Source: Nitrospirae bacterium CG2_30_53_67 (GTDB lineage: Bacteria > CG2-30-53-67). Taken from it: 14,512 nucleotides of DNA. A program made the translations under genes and the position numbers. The stretch is taken from assembly GCA_001873285.1 (NCBI GenBank), contig MNYV01000038.1:1-14512 (forward strand). Reading direction: 5' to 3'. Position 1 is the first letter of the stretch, and each line of letters opens with the position of its first letter. Shown here in pieces: positions 119 to 8,110 of the stretch. A model generated the notes under the pieces. The model was not told the DNA's origin. It saw nothing but the letters and a program-made list of their open reading frames with translations, and ran no database searches.

Positions 119-484
119 ATGCGGAACTTCATGGACATCACAAGGGCCCTGTCCGATGAGAACCGGGTCCGGGCGCTTGCGGCGCTTCGCGGGCGGGAGC
201 TCTGTGTCTGCCAGATCATAGAACTTCTAAGGTTGGCGCCCTCTACGGTCTCAAAACATATGCAGATCCTAAGGCAGGCCCGCCTCGTGGAGTGCCGCAA
301 AGACGGCCGCTGGATACATTACAGTCTGGCCGGAGATGAGGCGCCGTCATCGGCGCGGGCCGCCATCGAATGGATCTGCAATACCGTGGCAAAGGATCAG
401 AAGATCCGGGATGACGCCAAACACTTGAAGCAAATCCTGAAAATGGATCCGGAGACCGTATGCAGGCTCCAGCAAAAAAGCTGA
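119..484 (+). CDS. arsR: ArsR-family arsenic-responsive repressor
   Basis: A 121-residue winged-helix transcriptional repressor of the ArsR/SmtB family, expected to bind DNA as a dimer and release it when As(III) binds. The ELCVCQ segment carries Cys29 and Cys31, the paired cysteines of the classical alpha-3 metalloid site. The recognition helix is APSTVSKHMQIL (about 40-51), followed by the wing at ECRKDGRWIHYSL. Further cysteines (59, 87, 115) could supply a third ligand. The start at 119 is supported by AGGAG at 108-112 with a 6-base spacer. A self-matching dyad overlaps its promoter, so autoregulation is likely. Its end overlaps arsC by 25 bases, which suggests translational coupling. The assignment to arsenic rests on the CVC motif and the neighbours arsC and acr3. 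Confidence 0.93.
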   Translation: MRNFMDITRALSDENRVRALAALRGRELCVCQIIELLRLAPSTVSKHMQILRQARLVECRKDGRWIHYSLAGDEAPSSARAAIEWICNTVAKDQKIRDDAKHLKQILKMDPETVCRLQQKS

Positions 485-903
485 AGGTCCTCTTCCTCTG
501 CACGGGGAACTCCTGCCGCAGCCAGATGGCCGAAGGGTGGGCCCGGCGCTTCCTCAGTGATCGGATTGAGCCCTATTCGGCGGGGATCGAAATACACGGG
601 TTGAATCCCAGGGCCGTGGCCGTCATGGCCGAGGCGGGCGTGGACATCTCCCGTCACCGCTCCAAGCACGTGAGCGAACTCAAGGATCTCAAGTTCGATT
701 TTGTGATCACGGTCTGCGACCAAGCCCGGGAGAGCTGCCCGCTTTTTCCGGGAAATGCGAAAATCATCCATCGCAGCTTTGATGACCCCCCCAGACTGGC
801 CCAAGGGGCCCGGACCGAGGAGGAAGCCCTGGCCCATTACCGCCGCGTGCGGGATGAGATCATGGAGTTTGTGAAAACCCTGCCTGATGTCCTGGGACGG
901 TAG
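460..903 (+). CDS. arsC: Arsenate reductase, thioredoxin-coupled (LMW-PTP fold)
   Basis: A cytoplasmic enzyme of 147 residues reducing As(V) to As(III). The nucleophile loop is Cys14-TGNSC-Arg20 (the C-X5-R P-loop of low-molecular-weight tyrosine phosphatases). VCDQARESCPLFPG supplies Cys86 and Cys93, the redox pair that passes a disulfide to thioredoxin in the S. aureus/B. subtilis type. FDDP (107-110) holds the expected catalytic aspartate before proline. All key residues are present and the length is normal for the family. The start at 460 has GGAG at 451-454 with a 5-base spacer. It begins inside arsR (25-base overlap), so the two are probably co-translated. The product As(III) is the substrate of acr3, which starts 31 bases downstream. 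A plain phosphatase is unlikely because both extra cysteines are present. Confidence 0.95.
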   Translation: MQAPAKKLKVLFLCTGNSCRSQMAEGWARRFLSDRIEPYSAGIEIHGLNPRAVAVMAEAGVDISRHRSKHVSELKDLKFDFVITVCDQARESCPLFPGNAKIIHRSFDDPPRLAQGARTEEEALAHYRRVRDEIMEFVKTLPDVLGR

Positions 904-934: not shown

Positions 935-2011
935 ATGTTCCGAAAGGTTTTTGAGAAAATTCACAACTTCCGGCTGCTCCCGGTATTCGTCATCGTCAGC
1001 ATGGTGATCGGGATCGCTATCGGCAAATGGTACGGGATCTCCAACTTCCAACTCACCCCGCCGATCGATGCGATTAAATCCATCTTTCACGGGACTTACG
1101 AATTCAGCATAGGAAATACCCTTGCCCTCGGCGTGGTCATCGGGCTCTTCATGATGATGTACCCCGCAATGGCGAACATAAAATTCGAGGACCTGGGTAA
1201 GGCAACACGCTCGCCGAAACAGCTCCTGATCGTGGTATTCTTTAACTATGCTGTCGCCCCATTCTTCATGCTGCTGCTTGCAAAGATATTTTTAAGCGGC
1301 GAGCCAGACCTGTACACAGGGCTCGTGCTGTACGGGCTCGCCCCCTGCATCGCGATGGTGATCGTCTTCACCTATCTCTCGGCGGGTAACGGTCCTCTGG
1401 CCATCATCCTCGTGGCGCTGAACTCCATCATTCAGATGCTGCTGATCCCCGTCTATGCAAAGCTGCTCCTCGGAGAGATTCATTTCGATGTGTGGGTGGT
1501 GGGAGAGAGCGTGCTGCTCTATCTCGGCATCCCTCTTGTCGCGGGAATGCTTACGAGGTTCCTCGGCGTGAAGCGCTTCGGCGAGGAATGGTTCCATAAT
1601 CTCAAGTTTTATCTGGATACCCTTTCAATTATCGGGCTCTTATTTACCTTAATTGTCATGTTCGCCCTTAAGGGCGATCTTATTCTTGAAAAACCGTTCC
1701 TCATCGTCCAGATGGCCATTCCCATGACGATCTTCTTCTGGATCATGTTCGTGGTCGTTTATCTTACGGGGTGGAAACTGGGGCTCAATTACAAGGATGC
1801 CGTGGCCGTGGGGTTCAACGCCACGGGAAGAGATTTCGAGATCGCCATCGCCATTGCGATCACCGCGTTCAATCCGACCGTGGCACTCGCCACGGTCATC
1901 GGCCCGCTGATCGAGGTGCCGGTCATGCTGGTCCTGGTCTGGTTTGCGAGAAAAACAGAACATGCACTTTTCAATGGCCGTTCTGAATCTGTGGAAGCGG
2001 CCGATATCTAA
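935..2011 (+). CDS. acr3: Acr3 arsenite efflux permease
   Basis: An inner-membrane arsenite carrier of the Acr3 (bile/arsenite/riboflavin transporter) family with 358 residues and about ten membrane segments. Cys138 in LYGLAPCIAMV corresponds to the conserved TM4 cysteine needed by studied Acr3 proteins. The late segment DFEIAIAIAI (Glu302) and IGPLIEVPVM (Glu327) are family hallmarks. Before DFEIAIAI this protein has FNATGR where many Acr3 proteins have a TASSNN-like stretch, a mild departure from the commonest form. The start is set by AGGAGG (924-929) with a 5-base spacer. It is third in the arsR-arsC-acr3 run and is followed after 14 bases by a cysteine-rich peptide gene. Expression is presumably ArsR-controlled from the promoter at 59-88. 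Confidence 0.94.
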   Translation: MFRKVFEKIHNFRLLPVFVIVSMVIGIAIGKWYGISNFQLTPPIDAIKSIFHGTYEFSIGNTLALGVVIGLFMMMYPAMANIKFEDLGKATRSPKQLLIVVFFNYAVAPFFMLLLAKIFLSGEPDLYTGLVLYGLAPCIAMVIVFTYLSAGNGPLAIILVALNSIIQMLLIPVYAKLLLGEIHFDVWVVGESVLLYLGIPLVAGMLTRFLGVKRFGEEWFHNLKFYLDTLSIIGLLFTLIVMFALKGDLILEKPFLIVQMAIPMTIFFWIMFVVVYLTGWKLGLNYKDAVAVGFNATGRDFEIAIAIAITAFNPTVALATVIGPLIEVPVMLVLVWFARKTEHALFNGRSESVEAADI

Positions 2012-2025
2012 CAAAGGAGAAAAGT

Positions 2026-2193
2026 ATGGAAGAAGTAAAAAAGAAAAGAGGGTTGTTTGCTTTCATCAAGGAGTCCATGACCAGGAGCGGCGGATGCTGC
2101 GGGCCGGGGTCAAGCTGCTGCGGGCCGGCAAAAGAAGAAGGTGAAAAAAAAGCCGAAAACAAAAAAAAGAGAACAGACAAAGTAAAAAAGTAA
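2026..2193 (+). CDS. Small cysteine-rich peptide in the ars operon, function unknown
   Basis: A 55-codon reading frame with a strong ribosome binding site, AAAGGAG at 2013-2019, 6 bases before the ATG, only 14 bases after the acr3 stop. The N-terminal part (residues 1-21) is basic and contains GLFAFIKESM, which could form a short amphipathic helix. Residues 22-34 read GGCCGPGSSCCGP: two CC pairs (24-25 and 31-32) in glycine/proline/serine. The C-terminal 21 residues are almost all lysine, glutamate and asparagine. There is no signal peptide and no full membrane helix. I do not recognise a named family. Four clustered thiols beside an arsenite pump suggest metalloid or soft-metal binding, for instance buffering or delivery to Acr3; that is inference. 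The lysine-rich tail lies in A-rich DNA, so the coding end is less certain than the core. Confidence 0.72.
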   Translation: MEEVKKKRGLFAFIKESMTRSGGCCGPGSSCCGPAKEEGEKKAENKKKRTDKVKK

Positions 2194-2383: not shown

Positions 2384-4318
2384 ATGGAGCATTCTGACGT
2401 GAAGAATGAAAATCATAGGGATACATCTGTCCGGTTCCGGGAGATTGCCGTTCTTGCCTTTATCCCGGCGATGGTCGGGATCCTGATCCTGATCAGTTGG
2501 GCGCTGGATTTCTGGGAGATCGGGCATCCCTTCTGGCACAAGGGGATCGCCCTGACCGCGGCCCTGTTCGGCGGCTACACCCGGTTTGTTGAGGGCTTCG
2601 GGGATATCCTGAAACGTCGGATCACCGTGAATGTCTTTGTGGCCGTGGCCCTGACGGCAACGATCGCCATCGGAGAATTCCGGGCCGCGGCCCTGATCGT
2701 CTTCATCATGTCGGTCTCCGGGGCGCTCGAGGCCTACACCCTGGACAAGAACCGGCTGCACATCCGGAACCTGCTCGATCTCGCACCGAGAATGGCCACG
2801 GTCCGCCGCGGGGATGAGGAGATCTCCATGCCCGCGAGCGAGGTCCGGGTCGGGGACATCGTCATCGTACGGCCCGGGGAACGGATCCCCGTGGACGGGA
2901 TGGTGACGGCAGGGGCAAGCAGTGTGAATCAGGCCCCCATCACCGGGGAATCCATGCCCGTGGAGAAATTCATCGGGAGCGAGGTTTTCTCCGGTTCCCT
3001 GAACGAGGCAGGCCGTCTTGAGATCGAGACCACCAAGACCGGCGAGGACACCACCCTGGCCCGGATCGTGCATCTGGTGGAAGAGGCGCAGAGGACCCGT
3101 GCCCCGATCCAGAACATGGCCGACCGGTTCACGGTCTGGTTCCTACCCACGGTGCTCGTGCTCGCGGTGATCGGCTTTTTCACCTCCGGGGACATCAAGG
3201 TCTCGGTCTCGATCCTGCTCGTGGCCTGCCCGTGCGCCTTTGCCATTGCCACGCCCACGGCCGTGACCGCGGGGATCGCCAACATGGCCCGGCGTGCCGT
3301 GCTGATCAAGGGCGGCATCTTTCTGGAGCTGGCCGGAAAGATCGAGACCCTTCTCGTGGACAAGACCGGGACCTTCACCCTCGGAAGGCCCAGGGTCATG
3401 GAGGTTGTGGCCTTGAACGGGGTGCTCAAAGAAGATGTGCTCCGGCTCGCATCCATCGCCGAAAAATACTCGGAACATCCGCTGGCCCGCGCCGTGCTTG
3501 ACAGGGCCAGAGAGGAGAAGATCCAGGTCCCCGACCCTGAGAAATTCAGGGTTGAAAGCGGAAGGGGCGTCACAGCGCACTGGGCAGGCAAGGATCTTCT
3601 GGTCGGGAACCGTGAGTTCCTGCAGGGGAAAGGGATTGCCCTGGGAGAAGAGATCGCCTCGCTAATTTCCCACCATGTGGAACTGGGGAGGACCGTGATC
3701 CTGGTGGCCGACAATGCACATCCCATGGGGCTGATCTCCGTTGCCGACGAGATCCGTCCGGAGACCGTACAGTCCATCGTTTCCTTGAAGGCCATGGGCA
3801 TCCGCAACATCACCATGCTCACAGGGGATAACCCGCGGGTGGCCAGGGCCGTGGCTGCCGAGATTGGTGTGGATGATTTCCGGGCCGGGCTTCTGCCGGA
3901 GCAGAAGCAGGAGTATGTCAAGCGTCTCCAGAGCGAGGGGCAGAAGGTCGGGATGATCGGAGACGGGATCAACGACGCCCCGGCGCTGGCCCTGGCCGAT
4001 GTGGGGATCGCCATGGGCGCCGGGGGCACGGACGTGGCCATTGATACCGCGGATGTGACCCTCATGACCGATGACCTCTCCCGGGTCGCGGAATTCATTT
4101 GGATGTCCAAAAAGGTGATCCGGCGGATCAAGATGAACATCTTCTTTTCAATTATCTACAATGTTATCGGGCTTACTCTCGGAAGCATAGGCCTGCTCAC
4201 CCCGGTCCTGGCGGTGATCTTTCAGGAAGGCGGGTGCATTACCGTGGTCATGAGCTCCACCCTGCTTCTCTGGGCCAGGCCGGATGGGACCGGGGGCTCC
4301 CGCACCGAGGCTGTATGA
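2384..4318 (+). CDS. P1B-type heavy-metal translocating ATPase without N-terminal HMA domain
   Basis: An inner-membrane ATP-driven metal exporter, 644 residues from the ATG at 2384. Order: two N-terminal helices (TM1-2), TM3-4 at about NVFVAVALTATIAIG onward, the A-domain with TGES (187-190), TM5, TM6 with Cys282-Pro-Cys284, then the P/N domains with DKTGT (phosphorylated Asp326), the HP motif (365-366) and GDGIND (526-531), then TM7-8. No CXXC metal-binding domain precedes TM1. TM8 has QEGGC (614-618) and a serine pair in VVMSSTLLLW, which does not cleanly match the usual Cu (TM7 YN with TM8 MxxSS) or Zn/Cd (conserved TM8 Asp) patterns, although TM7 has YN. Substrate is therefore open: Cu(I)/Ag(I), Zn/Cd or another soft metal. 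The start is uncertain: 2384 has only a weak GGGTTGGG-type upstream site, and a GTG at 2345 lies within a repeat. ArsP follows 31 bases downstream. Confidence 0.88.
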   Translation: MEHSDVKNENHRDTSVRFREIAVLAFIPAMVGILILISWALDFWEIGHPFWHKGIALTAALFGGYTRFVEGFGDILKRRITVNVFVAVALTATIAIGEFRAAALIVFIMSVSGALEAYTLDKNRLHIRNLLDLAPRMATVRRGDEEISMPASEVRVGDIVIVRPGERIPVDGMVTAGASSVNQAPITGESMPVEKFIGSEVFSGSLNEAGRLEIETTKTGEDTTLARIVHLVEEAQRTRAPIQNMADRFTVWFLPTVLVLAVIGFFTSGDIKVSVSILLVACPCAFAIATPTAVTAGIANMARRAVLIKGGIFLELAGKIETLLVDKTGTFTLGRPRVMEVVALNGVLKEDVLRLASIAEKYSEHPLARAVLDRAREEKIQVPDPEKFRVESGRGVTAHWAGKDLLVGNREFLQGKGIALGEEIASLISHHVELGRTVILVADNAHPMGLISVADEIRPETVQSIVSLKAMGIRNITMLTGDNPRVARAVAAEIGVDDFRAGLLPEQKQEYVKRLQSEGQKVGMIGDGINDAPALALADVGIAMGAGGTDVAIDTADVTLMTDDLSRVAEFIWMSKKVIRRIKMNIFFSIIYNVIGLTLGSIGLLTPVLAVIFQEGGCITVVMSSTLLLWARPDGTGGSRTEAV

Positions 4319-4349: not shown

Positions 4350-5651
4350 ATGGATTGGAAACAGGAAGGAAGGATACTTGCGCTGATTGTCGCCGTGTTT
4401 CTCGGCTTCTACTACCTGCCCGTGGGCTCTGAGCGTTTCGATCACTCCGTGACCGAAGCGTTTTATCTGGCCAAGTGGTATGCCCGGGAACACGTGCTTC
4501 TCTGCCTGGTCCCCGCCTTTTTCATTGCGGGCGCGATCGGTGTCTTTGTGAGCCAGGCCTCGGTGATCCGGTACCTGGGGGCCCGGGCCAACAAGGTTCT
4601 GGCTTACGGCGTGGCTTCTGTCTCGGGCACGATCCTCGCTGTCTGCTCCTGCACGGTCCTTCCCCTTTTTGCCGGGATCTACCGCATGGGAGCGGGGCTC
4701 GGGCCGGCCACGGCCTTCCTCTATTCGGGGCCGGCCATCAATGTCCTGGCCATCGTACTCACGGCCCGGGTTTTGGGAATCCATCTGGGCGTAGCGCGCG
4801 CCGTGGGAGCGATCCTCTTCAGCGTGATCATCGGCCTTTTCATGCACCTCATTTTCCGAGGGGAAGAGCTGGAAAAGGCCGGGGCCGAGGCGGTCATGCC
4901 CGATGGCGAGCCGGCGCGGCCCCTCTACCAGAACGCCCTCTACTTCGCAGTTATGGTCGGGATTTTGGTCTTTGCCAACTGGGGAAGACCCGATGAGACG
5001 ACCGGCCTCTGGCATGCGATCTACGCGGACAGGTGGGCCATCACCTCTCTCTTCTCAGTACTGCTGGCCCTGATCCTGGTCATCTGGTTCGGGTTTAAGG
5101 CCCGAACCGTGCTGCTTGCCTCCCTGCCTGCCGCGGTCCTGGCATTCCTGGTCCCTCATGAGTCCATGATTCCTTTTGTGGCCGGGGTCTTGGGACTCTC
5201 GGTGATCACGGCCCGGGATCCGGGTGAAGGGGGCGAGTGGTTCCAGGCCTCATGGGGATTTGCCAAGCAGATCCTGCCCCTTCTCCTGATCGGGGTGCTG
5301 ATCGCGGGCGCCCTGCTCGGAAGACCGGGCCATGAAGGGTTGATCCCGTCTGAGTGGGTGAGCCGGGCCGTGGGAGGCAACTCCTTTGCCTCCAATTTTT
5401 TCGCCTCCTTTGTCGGGACCTTCATGTATTTCGCCACCCTGACCGAGGTGCCGATCCTCGAGGGGCTCCTGGGGAACGGCATGGGGCAGGGACCGGCCCT
5501 GGCCCTTCTGCTCGCGGGACCGGCGCTGAGTCTTCCGAACATGCTCGTGATCCGAAGCATACTTGGAACCCAAAAGACCGTGGTCTTTGTCTCCCTGGTG
5601 GTGATCATGGCCACCTTCACGGGAATGGTCTACGGCAGCGTTTTCGGATGA
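4350..5651 (+). CDS. arsP: ArsP-like permease (DUF318/SO_0444 family)
   Basis: A polytopic inner-membrane permease of 433 residues. The family hallmark is Cys99-Ser-Cys101 in AVCSCTVLPLFAGIYRMG followed by GPATAFLYSGPAINVLAI, repeated in degenerate form near the C-terminus as MYFATLTEVPILEGLL and ALALLLAGPALSLPNMLVIR. Studied ArsP members export trivalent organoarsenicals such as methylarsenite and reduced roxarsone; other members of this superfamily are uncharacterised, so the substrate here is inferred from the arsenic context. The start at 4350 is chosen over an in-frame upstream ATG at 4284 because AAAGGAG (4337-4343) stands 6 bases before it and the earlier start would overlap the ATPase gene. 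The hydrophilic linker about residues 170-190 (EELEKAGAEAVMPDGEPARP) separates two membrane halves. The next gene begins 10 bases after the stop. Confidence 0.82.
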   Translation: MDWKQEGRILALIVAVFLGFYYLPVGSERFDHSVTEAFYLAKWYAREHVLLCLVPAFFIAGAIGVFVSQASVIRYLGARANKVLAYGVASVSGTILAVCSCTVLPLFAGIYRMGAGLGPATAFLYSGPAINVLAIVLTARVLGIHLGVARAVGAILFSVIIGLFMHLIFRGEELEKAGAEAVMPDGEPARPLYQNALYFAVMVGILVFANWGRPDETTGLWHAIYADRWAITSLFSVLLALILVIWFGFKARTVLLASLPAAVLAFLVPHESMIPFVAGVLGLSVITARDPGEGGEWFQASWGFAKQILPLLLIGVLIAGALLGRPGHEGLIPSEWVSRAVGGNSFASNFFASFVGTFMYFATLTEVPILEGLLGNGMGQGPALALLLAGPALSLPNMLVIRSILGTQKTVVFVSLVVIMATFTGMVYGSVFG

Positions 5652-6641: not shown

Positions 6642-6875
6642 ATGAAAAAGTTTCAGATTCTCGGGCCTGGGTGCCCCAACTGCAAGAAGCTCGAGGCCAA
6701 CACCCGTCAGGCCGCGGAGGAACTCGGCCTGGAGTATGAGATCGAAAAGGTCTCGGACATCAAGGTCATTATGGGGTTCGGCGTCATGATGACCCCGGCC
6801 CTGGTGGTGGACGGGGAGGTCAAGATCTCGGGCAAGGTCGCGACCGTAGGCGAAATCAGGGAAGTGCTTCAGTAA
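6642..6875 (+). CDS. arsE: ArsE-like small redoxin (TM0996/MTH895 family)
   Basis: A 77-residue cytoplasmic thioredoxin-fold protein with the active site GPGCPNCKK (Cys11 and Cys14), the cis-proline loop MMTPALVVDG and the C-terminal helix VATVGEIREVL. There is no signal peptide. Small redoxins of this family occur in ars loci; followed by ArsF- and ArsG-type genes it corresponds to arsE of the arsEFG operon described in Shewanella, where ArsE and ArsF support reduction of nitrophenyl arsenicals. The start is fixed by AAAGGAGG (6626-6633) with an 8-base spacer. It leads the run arsE-arsF-arsG, with 21 bases before arsF. The leader consists of repeat DNA (6482-6618), so how it is transcribed is unclear. 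Recognised from the motif and gene order; a generic redoxin role remains possible. Confidence 0.85.
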   Translation: MKKFQILGPGCPNCKKLEANTRQAAEELGLEYEIEKVSDIKVIMGFGVMMTPALVVDGEVKISGKVATVGEIREVLQ

Positions 6876-6896
6876 ACCCAGTCAAAGGGGAGTGAT

Positions 6897-7421
6897 ATGA
6901 GTACCAAGAGGATCATTACTACACTGCTTTTACTCTTCGTGGCCGGGAGCCTGGTCTATCTGGCAGCGGGGGAGGTCGCCCGGAACCCGAATAACGGACA
7001 GGCTGCGAACAGGGATCCTGTCAAAGAGACCGTGCCTTCGGCCGATGCTCCGGGCACATTACAGGATCGTCCCGAAATACCGGACCGGGTGGTGGTCTAT
7101 TACTTCCACGGGACCATGCGCTGTCCCACGTGCCGGAAGTTCGAGGCCTACGCCGGGGAGTCCCTGATGAGCGCATTTCCCGGGGAGCTCGCCTCGGGAC
7201 GCCTGGAATGGCGCGTGATCAATGTGGATGAACGGGAAAACGAACACTATGTCCGGGACTATGAGCTCAGGACCAAGTCCCTGATCGTGTCGGAGGTGAA
7301 AAACGGGGAGCAGACACGGTGGAAAAACCTCCAAAAGATATGGGATCTGGCCGGTGACAAGGAGGCCTTCTTCTCCTACGTGCAGGAGGAGACCCGAGCC
7401 TATCTCCTGGGATCTGACTGA
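6897..7421 (+). CDS. arsF: ArsF-family membrane-anchored thioredoxin-like protein
   Basis: A 174-residue protein with a positively charged N-terminus (MSTKR) and one hydrophobic segment (about 5-25), then a charged linker and a thioredoxin-like domain. This predicts an inner-membrane anchor with the domain in the periplasm. The active site is YYFHGTMRCPTCRKFEAYA (Cys76, Cys79). ELRTKSLIVSE occupies the cis-Pro region but has serine and no proline there, which is common in this family as far as I recall. The family is named for ArsF, a subunit of the nitrophenyl-arsenical nitroreduction system. The start at 6897 has AGGGGAG (6886-6892) 4 bases before it. The stop TGA overlaps the ATG of arsG by one base, a tight translational coupling. 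The periplasmic location is inferred from charge distribution. Confidence 0.85.
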   Translation: MSTKRIITTLLLLFVAGSLVYLAAGEVARNPNNGQAANRDPVKETVPSADAPGTLQDRPEIPDRVVVYYFHGTMRCPTCRKFEAYAGESLMSAFPGELASGRLEWRVINVDERENEHYVRDYELRTKSLIVSEVKNGEQTRWKNLQKIWDLAGDKEAFFSYVQEETRAYLLGSD

Positions 7422-8110
7422 TGAACGGTATCTTTTTGGGGAGCGCGAGCGCCCTGTGGCTGGGGGTCCTCACCTCACTCAGCCCCTGTCCCCTCGCGAC
7501 CAACATTGCCGCGGTCTCCTATGTGGGAAAGCAGATCGGCAGGCCCCGCCGGGTCCTTGCGGCGGGCGTGGTCTATTCCCTGGGCCGGGCGCTCACCTAC
7601 ATGGTCCTGGGTCTGCTCCTGGTCTCAAGCCTGCTTTCGGCGCCGATCCTCTCCCACTGGCTCCAGAAGTATATGAACAAGCTCCTGGGGCCGATCCTGA
7701 TCCTGGTGGGCATGGCCCTGCTGGAGCTGATACAGTTGAATGTGGGCGGCGCAGGCATGGCGCTCAAGATGCAGAAGCGGATCGACACGTCAGGACTCTG
7801 GGGAGCGGGCCTCCTCGGGGCCGTCTTCGCCCTCTCTTTCTGCCCGGTCTCCGCGGCCCTCTTCTTCGGGAGCCTGATCCCCCTCTCGATCAAGTACGGA
7901 TCCGGCATGATTTTGCCCGGCCTCTACGGCATGGGCACCGGCCTTCCGGTCTTGGTCTTCGCGATCCTCATCGCCCAGGGAGCGCGGTCCGTGAGTAGGA
8001 TCTTCGACCGGATCACCCGGATCGAGGTCTGGGCGCGTCGGATCACGGGGGTGATCTTCATCGGGGTGGGGATCTATTATTCATTAAGCTACATCTTTGT
8101 CGTCCTGTAG
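7421..8110 (+). CDS. arsG: ArsG-family membrane protein (CcdA/DsbD-like fold)
   Basis: An inner-membrane protein of 229 residues with about six helices. Two Cys-Pro motifs occupy equivalent places in the two halves: LSPCPLATN (Cys23) and LSFCPVSAALFF (Cys141), as in CcdA and the DsbD core, where the pair shuttles electrons across the membrane. Described ArsG proteins are reported to export trivalent aminophenyl arsenicals. SPCPLATNIAAVSYVGK is strongly characteristic of this family. It overlaps arsF by one base and is followed by a truncated CDF gene after 28 bases. Whether this protein transports arsenicals, electrons or both cannot be settled from sequence; both cysteines are intact, so a redox function stays possible. 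Confidence 0.86.
   Translation: MNGIFLGSASALWLGVLTSLSPCPLATNIAAVSYVGKQIGRPRRVLAAGVVYSLGRALTYMVLGLLLVSSLLSAPILSHWLQKYMNKLLGPILILVGMALLELIQLNVGGAGMALKMQKRIDTSGLWGAGLLGAVFALSFCPVSAALFFGSLIPLSIKYGSGMILPGLYGMGTGLPVLVFAILIAQGARSVSRIFDRITRIEVWARRITGVIFIGVGIYYSLSYIFVVL

Follow-up and report, generated by a model that had tools for sequence, protein, structure and literature searches.

Copper chaperones of the CopZ/Atx1 type and HMA domains deliver soft metal ions to P1B-type ATPases, and trivalent arsenic and antimony prefer three thiol or other sulfur ligands. For antimony, the antRCA operon of Comamonas testosteroni JL40 reportedly mediates the export of Sb(III). AntC is the small peptide of this antimonite-resistance operon, whose ATPase AntA is the subject of An et al. 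2021 (cited in PMC10509353). Peptides of this kind are known but little studied, and here we describe a four-thiol variant of them. It is encoded in a 14,512-nt stretch of DNA from Nitrospirae bacterium CG2_30_53_67, referred to as the window, by a 55-codon frame that a preliminary description had presented as an undescribed peptide gene coupled to acr3. The gene is indeed unannotated; wholly undescribed it is not, as it belongs with AntC of the antRCA operon.

The frame itself, its coordinates and length, its Shine-Dalgarno sequence, its spacing from acr3 and the GGCCGPGSSCCGP core were all found as first reported (Table 1). The translated peptide reads MEEVKKKRGLFAFIKESMTRSGGCCGPGSSCCGPAKEEGEKKAENKKKRTDKVKK and carries its thiols at C24, C25, C31 and C32, within the cysteine core GGCCGPGSSCCGP (type-1 layout, CC..CC). 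AAAGGAG precedes the frame, with AAAGGAGAAAAGTATG as the Shine-Dalgarno sequence, and 14 nt separate the end of the acr3 stop codon at 2011 from the ATG at 2026. The start of the peptide, which had been called basic and amphipathic, is basic, but its amphipathic character is weak: the helical moment of 0.32 was matched or exceeded by 41% of shuffled sequences. Structure prediction yielded an N-terminal helix at residues 2–20 and an unstructured remainder at a pLDDT of 57, a low confidence at which the model is indicative only; we take the peptide to be cytosolic. Searches of the window peptide against the Pfam and NCBIfam models gave no match, the ArsD model NF033727 included. When the acr3–ATPase spacer was shuffled 5,000 times with its dinucleotides preserved, an ATG-initiated ORF of at least 55 aa arose 819 times and an ORF of this size with a Shine-Dalgarno sequence 102 times, while the combination of ORF, Shine-Dalgarno sequence and CC..CC core did not occur at all (0/5,000).

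Table 1. Features of the arsenic gene cluster in the window
Feature	Position	Strand	Remarks
arsR, first cluster gene	119..484	+	ArsR type by Pfam/NCBIfam; not close to AntR (6UVU E=6e-4)
arsC, LMW-phosphatase (thioredoxin-type) arsenate reductase	460..903	+	Pfam/NCBIfam
acr3-family arsenite permease	935..2011	+	TIGR00832 E=5e-78, 262.6 bits, below 282.8 cut-off
Shine-Dalgarno region (AAAGGAGAAAAGT)	2013..2025	+	GGAG ~7 nt 5′ of ATG
AntC-like peptide gene	2026..2193	+	55 aa; ATG 2026, stop 2191–2193
AntA-type P1B ATPase, 644 aa	2384..4318	+	Pfam/NCBIfam; 63% identical to Enterobacter antR-operon ATPase
ArsP_1-type permease, downstream of antA	4350..5651	+	PF03773 E=1e-68
arsE-arsF-arsG-like genes	6642..8110	+	TIGR00412, NF040494, NF040495

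The genes of the cluster follow each other in the order arsR, arsC, acr3, antC-like, antA-like, ArsP_1 permease, Fe-S protein, arsE, arsF and arsG. Beyond arsG, judged from translations only, a CDF-like frame is followed by another arsR-like one and by frames resembling outer-membrane and membrane-fusion efflux components. With this gene content the host would be able to export different trivalent species by more than one route. Between antC and antA, the spacer (2194–2345) contains a palindromic dispersed repeat with the core TGGATTCCCCGATCCAGTCGGGGAATGAC, of which 37 more partial copies were found elsewhere in the genome; it is missing from the corresponding spacer of the congeneric genome G001.

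Single-sequence searches with the window peptide returned zero relatives in genome contigs or plasmids, and the family surfaced only via a DNA pattern scan for CCGPGxxCCG and via searches with the ATPase. Most matches of the pattern in the GTDB contig set were chance frames; four were true relatives, one in Phycisphaerae, one in a second Planctomycetota bin and one each in bins of Lentisphaerae and Verrucomicrobia. A weak match (G044/L003, E=3e-4) was dropped as chance, as it falls inside a frame overlapping minC/minD-like genes. Relatives are thus known from Planctomycetota, Verrucomicrobiota/Lentisphaerae, one further lineage and Enterobacter plasmids, with most homologues deriving from metagenome-assembled genomes (MAGs). 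The only other genome of the genus in our sample carries a copy at the same position that is 82% identical and differs by an in-frame 6-nt indel. At all 15 homologous loci a purine-rich, Shine-Dalgarno-like stretch is found close 5′ of the ATG. No family member has fewer than three clustered cysteines, and C25 and C31 are invariant among them: nine of the 15 show a CC..C(C) core and the other six the three cysteines of CGPGCGC. The N-terminal helix segment KKxGxxxxIxESM is kept across phyla. Mapped onto the ATPase tree, the cysteine layout of the peptide has switched at least two times, and both layouts occur inside one AntA clade. Two side observations concern related frames: a DsbD-like gene 5′ of antC (L124:2464-3282(-)) reads into the antC frame, probably through a frameshift in the MAG, and two very short archaeal frames with a CCGPGCGCCGPGCC core, L065:1545 and L140:21, are possibly separate thiol peptides; a Bathyarchaeota bin is the source of one.

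The core of the peptide is under purifying selection across phyla, its amino acids being kept while the codons drift. Between phyla core dN amounts to 0.04–0.17, with synonymous sites near saturation. For the 29-codon core of the window and Phycisphaerae peptides we counted 13.5 synonymous changes over 18.3 sites versus 10.5 non-synonymous changes over 68.7 sites; the G386–G387 pair gave dN 0.038, dS 1.2 and a dN/dS of ∼0.03, and the G922–G904 pair 14 synonymous versus 4 non-synonymous changes. The window and its nearest congener are too close for a rate test, their dN/dS of 0.57 resting on 4.5 synonymous and 11.5 non-synonymous changes. The preliminary description had made the reality of the gene depend on the CC core of homologues and on purifying selection, and on neither count did the data speak against it. 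The 55-aa frame is a real, unannotated gene; that its product is a small thiol peptide acting as a metalloid chaperone or buffer, two of the roles suggested at the outset, appears most plausible.

With the downstream ATPase (window 2384–4318) as query, the matches separated into those at least 55% and those at most 44% identical to it. The peptide is encoded directly upstream of the ATPase at all 15 sampled loci of one P1B subfamily (identity to the window ATPase 56% or more), the window included, and at none of the loci of seven ATPases with at most 44% identity. The gene 5′ of the peptide is an ArsR/AntR-type regulator at seven loci, a DsbD/ArsG-like permease at five, acr3 at two, both in the genus of the window, and arsD, joined in frame, at one. 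The constant partner of the peptide is the AntA-type ATPase and not acr3, because all 15 AntA-type loci carry the peptide while the upstream gene varies; the coupling to acr3 proposed earlier does not extend beyond these two loci. When a profile of all 15 peptides was run against 158 diverse genomes, it matched exactly the three AntA carriers and zero orphans. The system is rare and patchy: AntA was not found in samples of Burkholderiaceae and Desulfobacterota (∼200 each), and 392 sampled Planctomycetota yielded one full-length AntC.

A link to the ant system comes from Enterobacter hormaechei plasmids, which carry antR, a 62-aa peptide gene and a P-type ATPase gene in this order; PGAP labels the regulator as antimonite-responsive repressor AntR and the 62-aa product as ‘hypothetical’. 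The Enterobacter AntR matches PDB entry 6UVU over 124/124 residues (E=1.4e-76), and 6UVU is the solved AntR of C. testosteroni JL40. As proxy for the AntC sequence we took the peptide of Enterobacter plasmid pEhoE1-2 (L171 8810-8998). The Enterobacter peptide begins with MEKKNSEVKSDKKGIWTILKESMNKASSGCGPGCGCHVEN and has the KKG....I.ESM.K lead-in and the C.G..C frame also seen in the window peptide. Furthermore, a profile built exclusively from type-2 (CGPGCGC) peptides retrieved the window peptide with E=1.4e-9, while none of 3,000 shuffled decoys scored better than 0.069. Because of this recovery, and because of the Enterobacter antR–peptide–ATPase operon with its AntR matching 6UVU, we assign the window peptide by sequence comparison to the AntC type, with a four-thiol layout and as partner of a putative Sb(III) pump of the AntA kind that is embedded in an arsenic operon.

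The 15 AntA-type ATPases, among them that of the antR operon, form a clade that excludes other P1B-ATPases with a support of 100/100. The nearest PDB relative of the window ATPase is the copper pump CopA. An N-terminal HMA domain is absent from the window ATPase according to Pfam. The protein contains exactly three cysteines in 644 aa, C282 and C284 in the CPC motif of M6 and C618 in M8, the last membrane helix (EGGCITVVMSST); all 15 AntA-type pumps share C618, whereas 0/10 other ATPases have it. Three loci encode a protein of ∼250 aa as neighbour of antA (L071:3102-3851(-), L124:3310-4044(-) and L118:5372-6127(+)). These proteins appear to have a single membrane helix; their N-terminus bears CC or CGPGCGC and their C-terminus a cluster of cysteines. 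Two of these proteins lack an NCBIfam model and none has a convincing Pfam match.

We consider it likely that the peptide acts as an AntC-type partner of AntA, binding a trivalent metalloid through its thiols, docking on the pump and handing the ion over for export. The peptide would consist of a lysine-rich N-terminal helix (approximately residues 2–20), a flexible glycine/proline loop with the four thiols and a tail that is disordered and charged. Three or more of its thiols would bind trivalent Sb(III), and probably also As(III) or MAs(III); the loaded peptide would dock on AntA, itself devoid of an N-terminal metal-binding domain; the ion would pass by thiol exchange to the membrane site C282/C284/C618, from where AntA would export it in an ATP-driven manner. 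Metalloid binding, docking, transfer and the preference for Sb(III) over As(III) are steps that we infer. Most likely AntC supplies the function of the missing metal-binding N-domain in trans, serving Sb(III)/As(III) as a chaperone or as a buffer. The company of arsR, arsC, acr3, ArsP and arsEFG in the cluster speaks for this reading, while a cysteine layout unlike that of the Enterobacter AntC and a regulator of the ArsR rather than the AntR kind count against it. Two findings in other proteins may lend circumstantial support to a role in metalloid handling. On the Enterobacter ludwigii plasmid pEL-ars2 (L172:8456-8986) ArsD (NF033727, E=3.4e-38) and an AntC-type peptide form one uninterrupted frame of 177 aa, and a Shine-Dalgarno sequence is still present before the AntC ATG despite this joining. 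In addition, CCGPGxxCCG occurs near the N-terminus of seven frames of ∼260–370 aa, of which the three tested (L047, L058 and L114) are arsenite methyltransferases scoring above the cut-off of NF008823, and the other four (L068, L100, L125 and L126) look alike. A broader generalization is possible, although we lean slightly against it: a widely dispersed and hitherto unrecognised family of trans-acting metal-binding peptides, in which cores of three and of four thiols are interchangeable, would replace the built-in metal-binding domain of a P1B-ATPase subfamily. The three-cysteine membrane site of these pumps would be specific for trivalent pnictogens, and the pumps would provide arsenic operons with a second export route beside Acr3.

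The main rival to a chaperone that hands its ion to AntA is a thiol buffer or mini-metallothionein, which would sequester cytosolic Sb(III)/As(III) with no specific hand-over, its location next to antA reflecting co-regulation only. A flexible, low-complexity peptide with clustered cysteines and a low-confidence fold agrees with such a role, as do the repeated changes of cysteine layout on the AntA tree (at least two), which suit a loose binding requirement. However, a plain buffer would have no need for the KKxGxxxxIxESM helix that is kept across phyla, and the peptide is tied to one ATPase subfamily rather than to ars operons generally, so that we regard this explanation as unlikely. The same conserved basic helix, together with the 1:1 synteny with AntA, could also be expected of a small regulatory subunit whose helix modulates the ATPase and whose thiols sense the metalloid or redox state instead of carrying an ion. 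The three to four clustered cysteines of every member better suit ion binding, and the E. ludwigii peptide, read in one frame with the chaperone ArsD, also argues against regulation; we judge this reading improbable.

Far less weight still falls on an accessory peptide of Acr3, the permease partner considered in the preliminary description: the gene does follow acr3 by 14 nt in two congeneric genomes, but at 13 of the 15 loci another gene lies upstream, and AntA is downstream at all of them. That the frame is spurious and has no product might be suspected from its shortness, its A-rich ends and the lack of a family model match. This notion is refuted by conservation across phyla and can practically be dismissed, as synonymous-biased change, Shine-Dalgarno-like sites, synteny and the PGAP annotation of the Enterobacter homologue also oppose it.

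With the assignment of the peptide to the AntC type, an unannotated micro-gene gains a place in a defined pathway, and the range of the ant system, until now a few Pseudomonadota, grows to include Planctomycetota, Verrucomicrobiota/Lentisphaerae and further lineages. Generic ‘heavy metal P-type ATPases’ can be distinguished from such pumps by the combined signature of AntC and C618 of the ATPase. It also becomes a testable question whether a peptide of ∼55 residues is the detachable metal-binding domain of an antimony/arsenic P-type pump.

Among the known systems AntC of the antRCA operon, represented by its Enterobacter proxy, is closest: both are small cysteine peptides encoded directly upstream of an AntA-type P-ATPase, with the KKG....I.ESM.K segment and the invariant C25 and C31 in common. 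They differ in that the window peptide has four cysteines in CCGPGSSCC (CC..CC) and the proxy three in CGPGCGC; moreover, the window gene lies within a large ars cluster, after acr3, and this cluster starts with an ArsR-type regulator instead of AntR (6UVU E=6e-4 only). ArsD, the metallochaperone of the ArsAB pump (NF033727), resembles the window peptide in its proposed role, in that it carries metalloids on vicinal thiols to a pump driven by ATP, and in E. ludwigii it shares a reading frame with AntC; in contrast to the peptide it is a folded domain of ∼120 aa, and a sequence relation between the two was not found. Bacterial ArsM (NF008823), likewise an arsenite-handling protein, shares the N-terminal CCGPGxxCCG motif, but there the motif belongs to a methyltransferase of ∼300 aa and the likeness is probably convergent. 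With CopZ/Atx1 chaperones and HMA domains the window peptide would share the task of delivering soft ions to an ATPase of the P1B type, whereas it has neither their ferredoxin-like fold nor their CxxC motif and instead presents four clustered thiols that suit S3 coordination.
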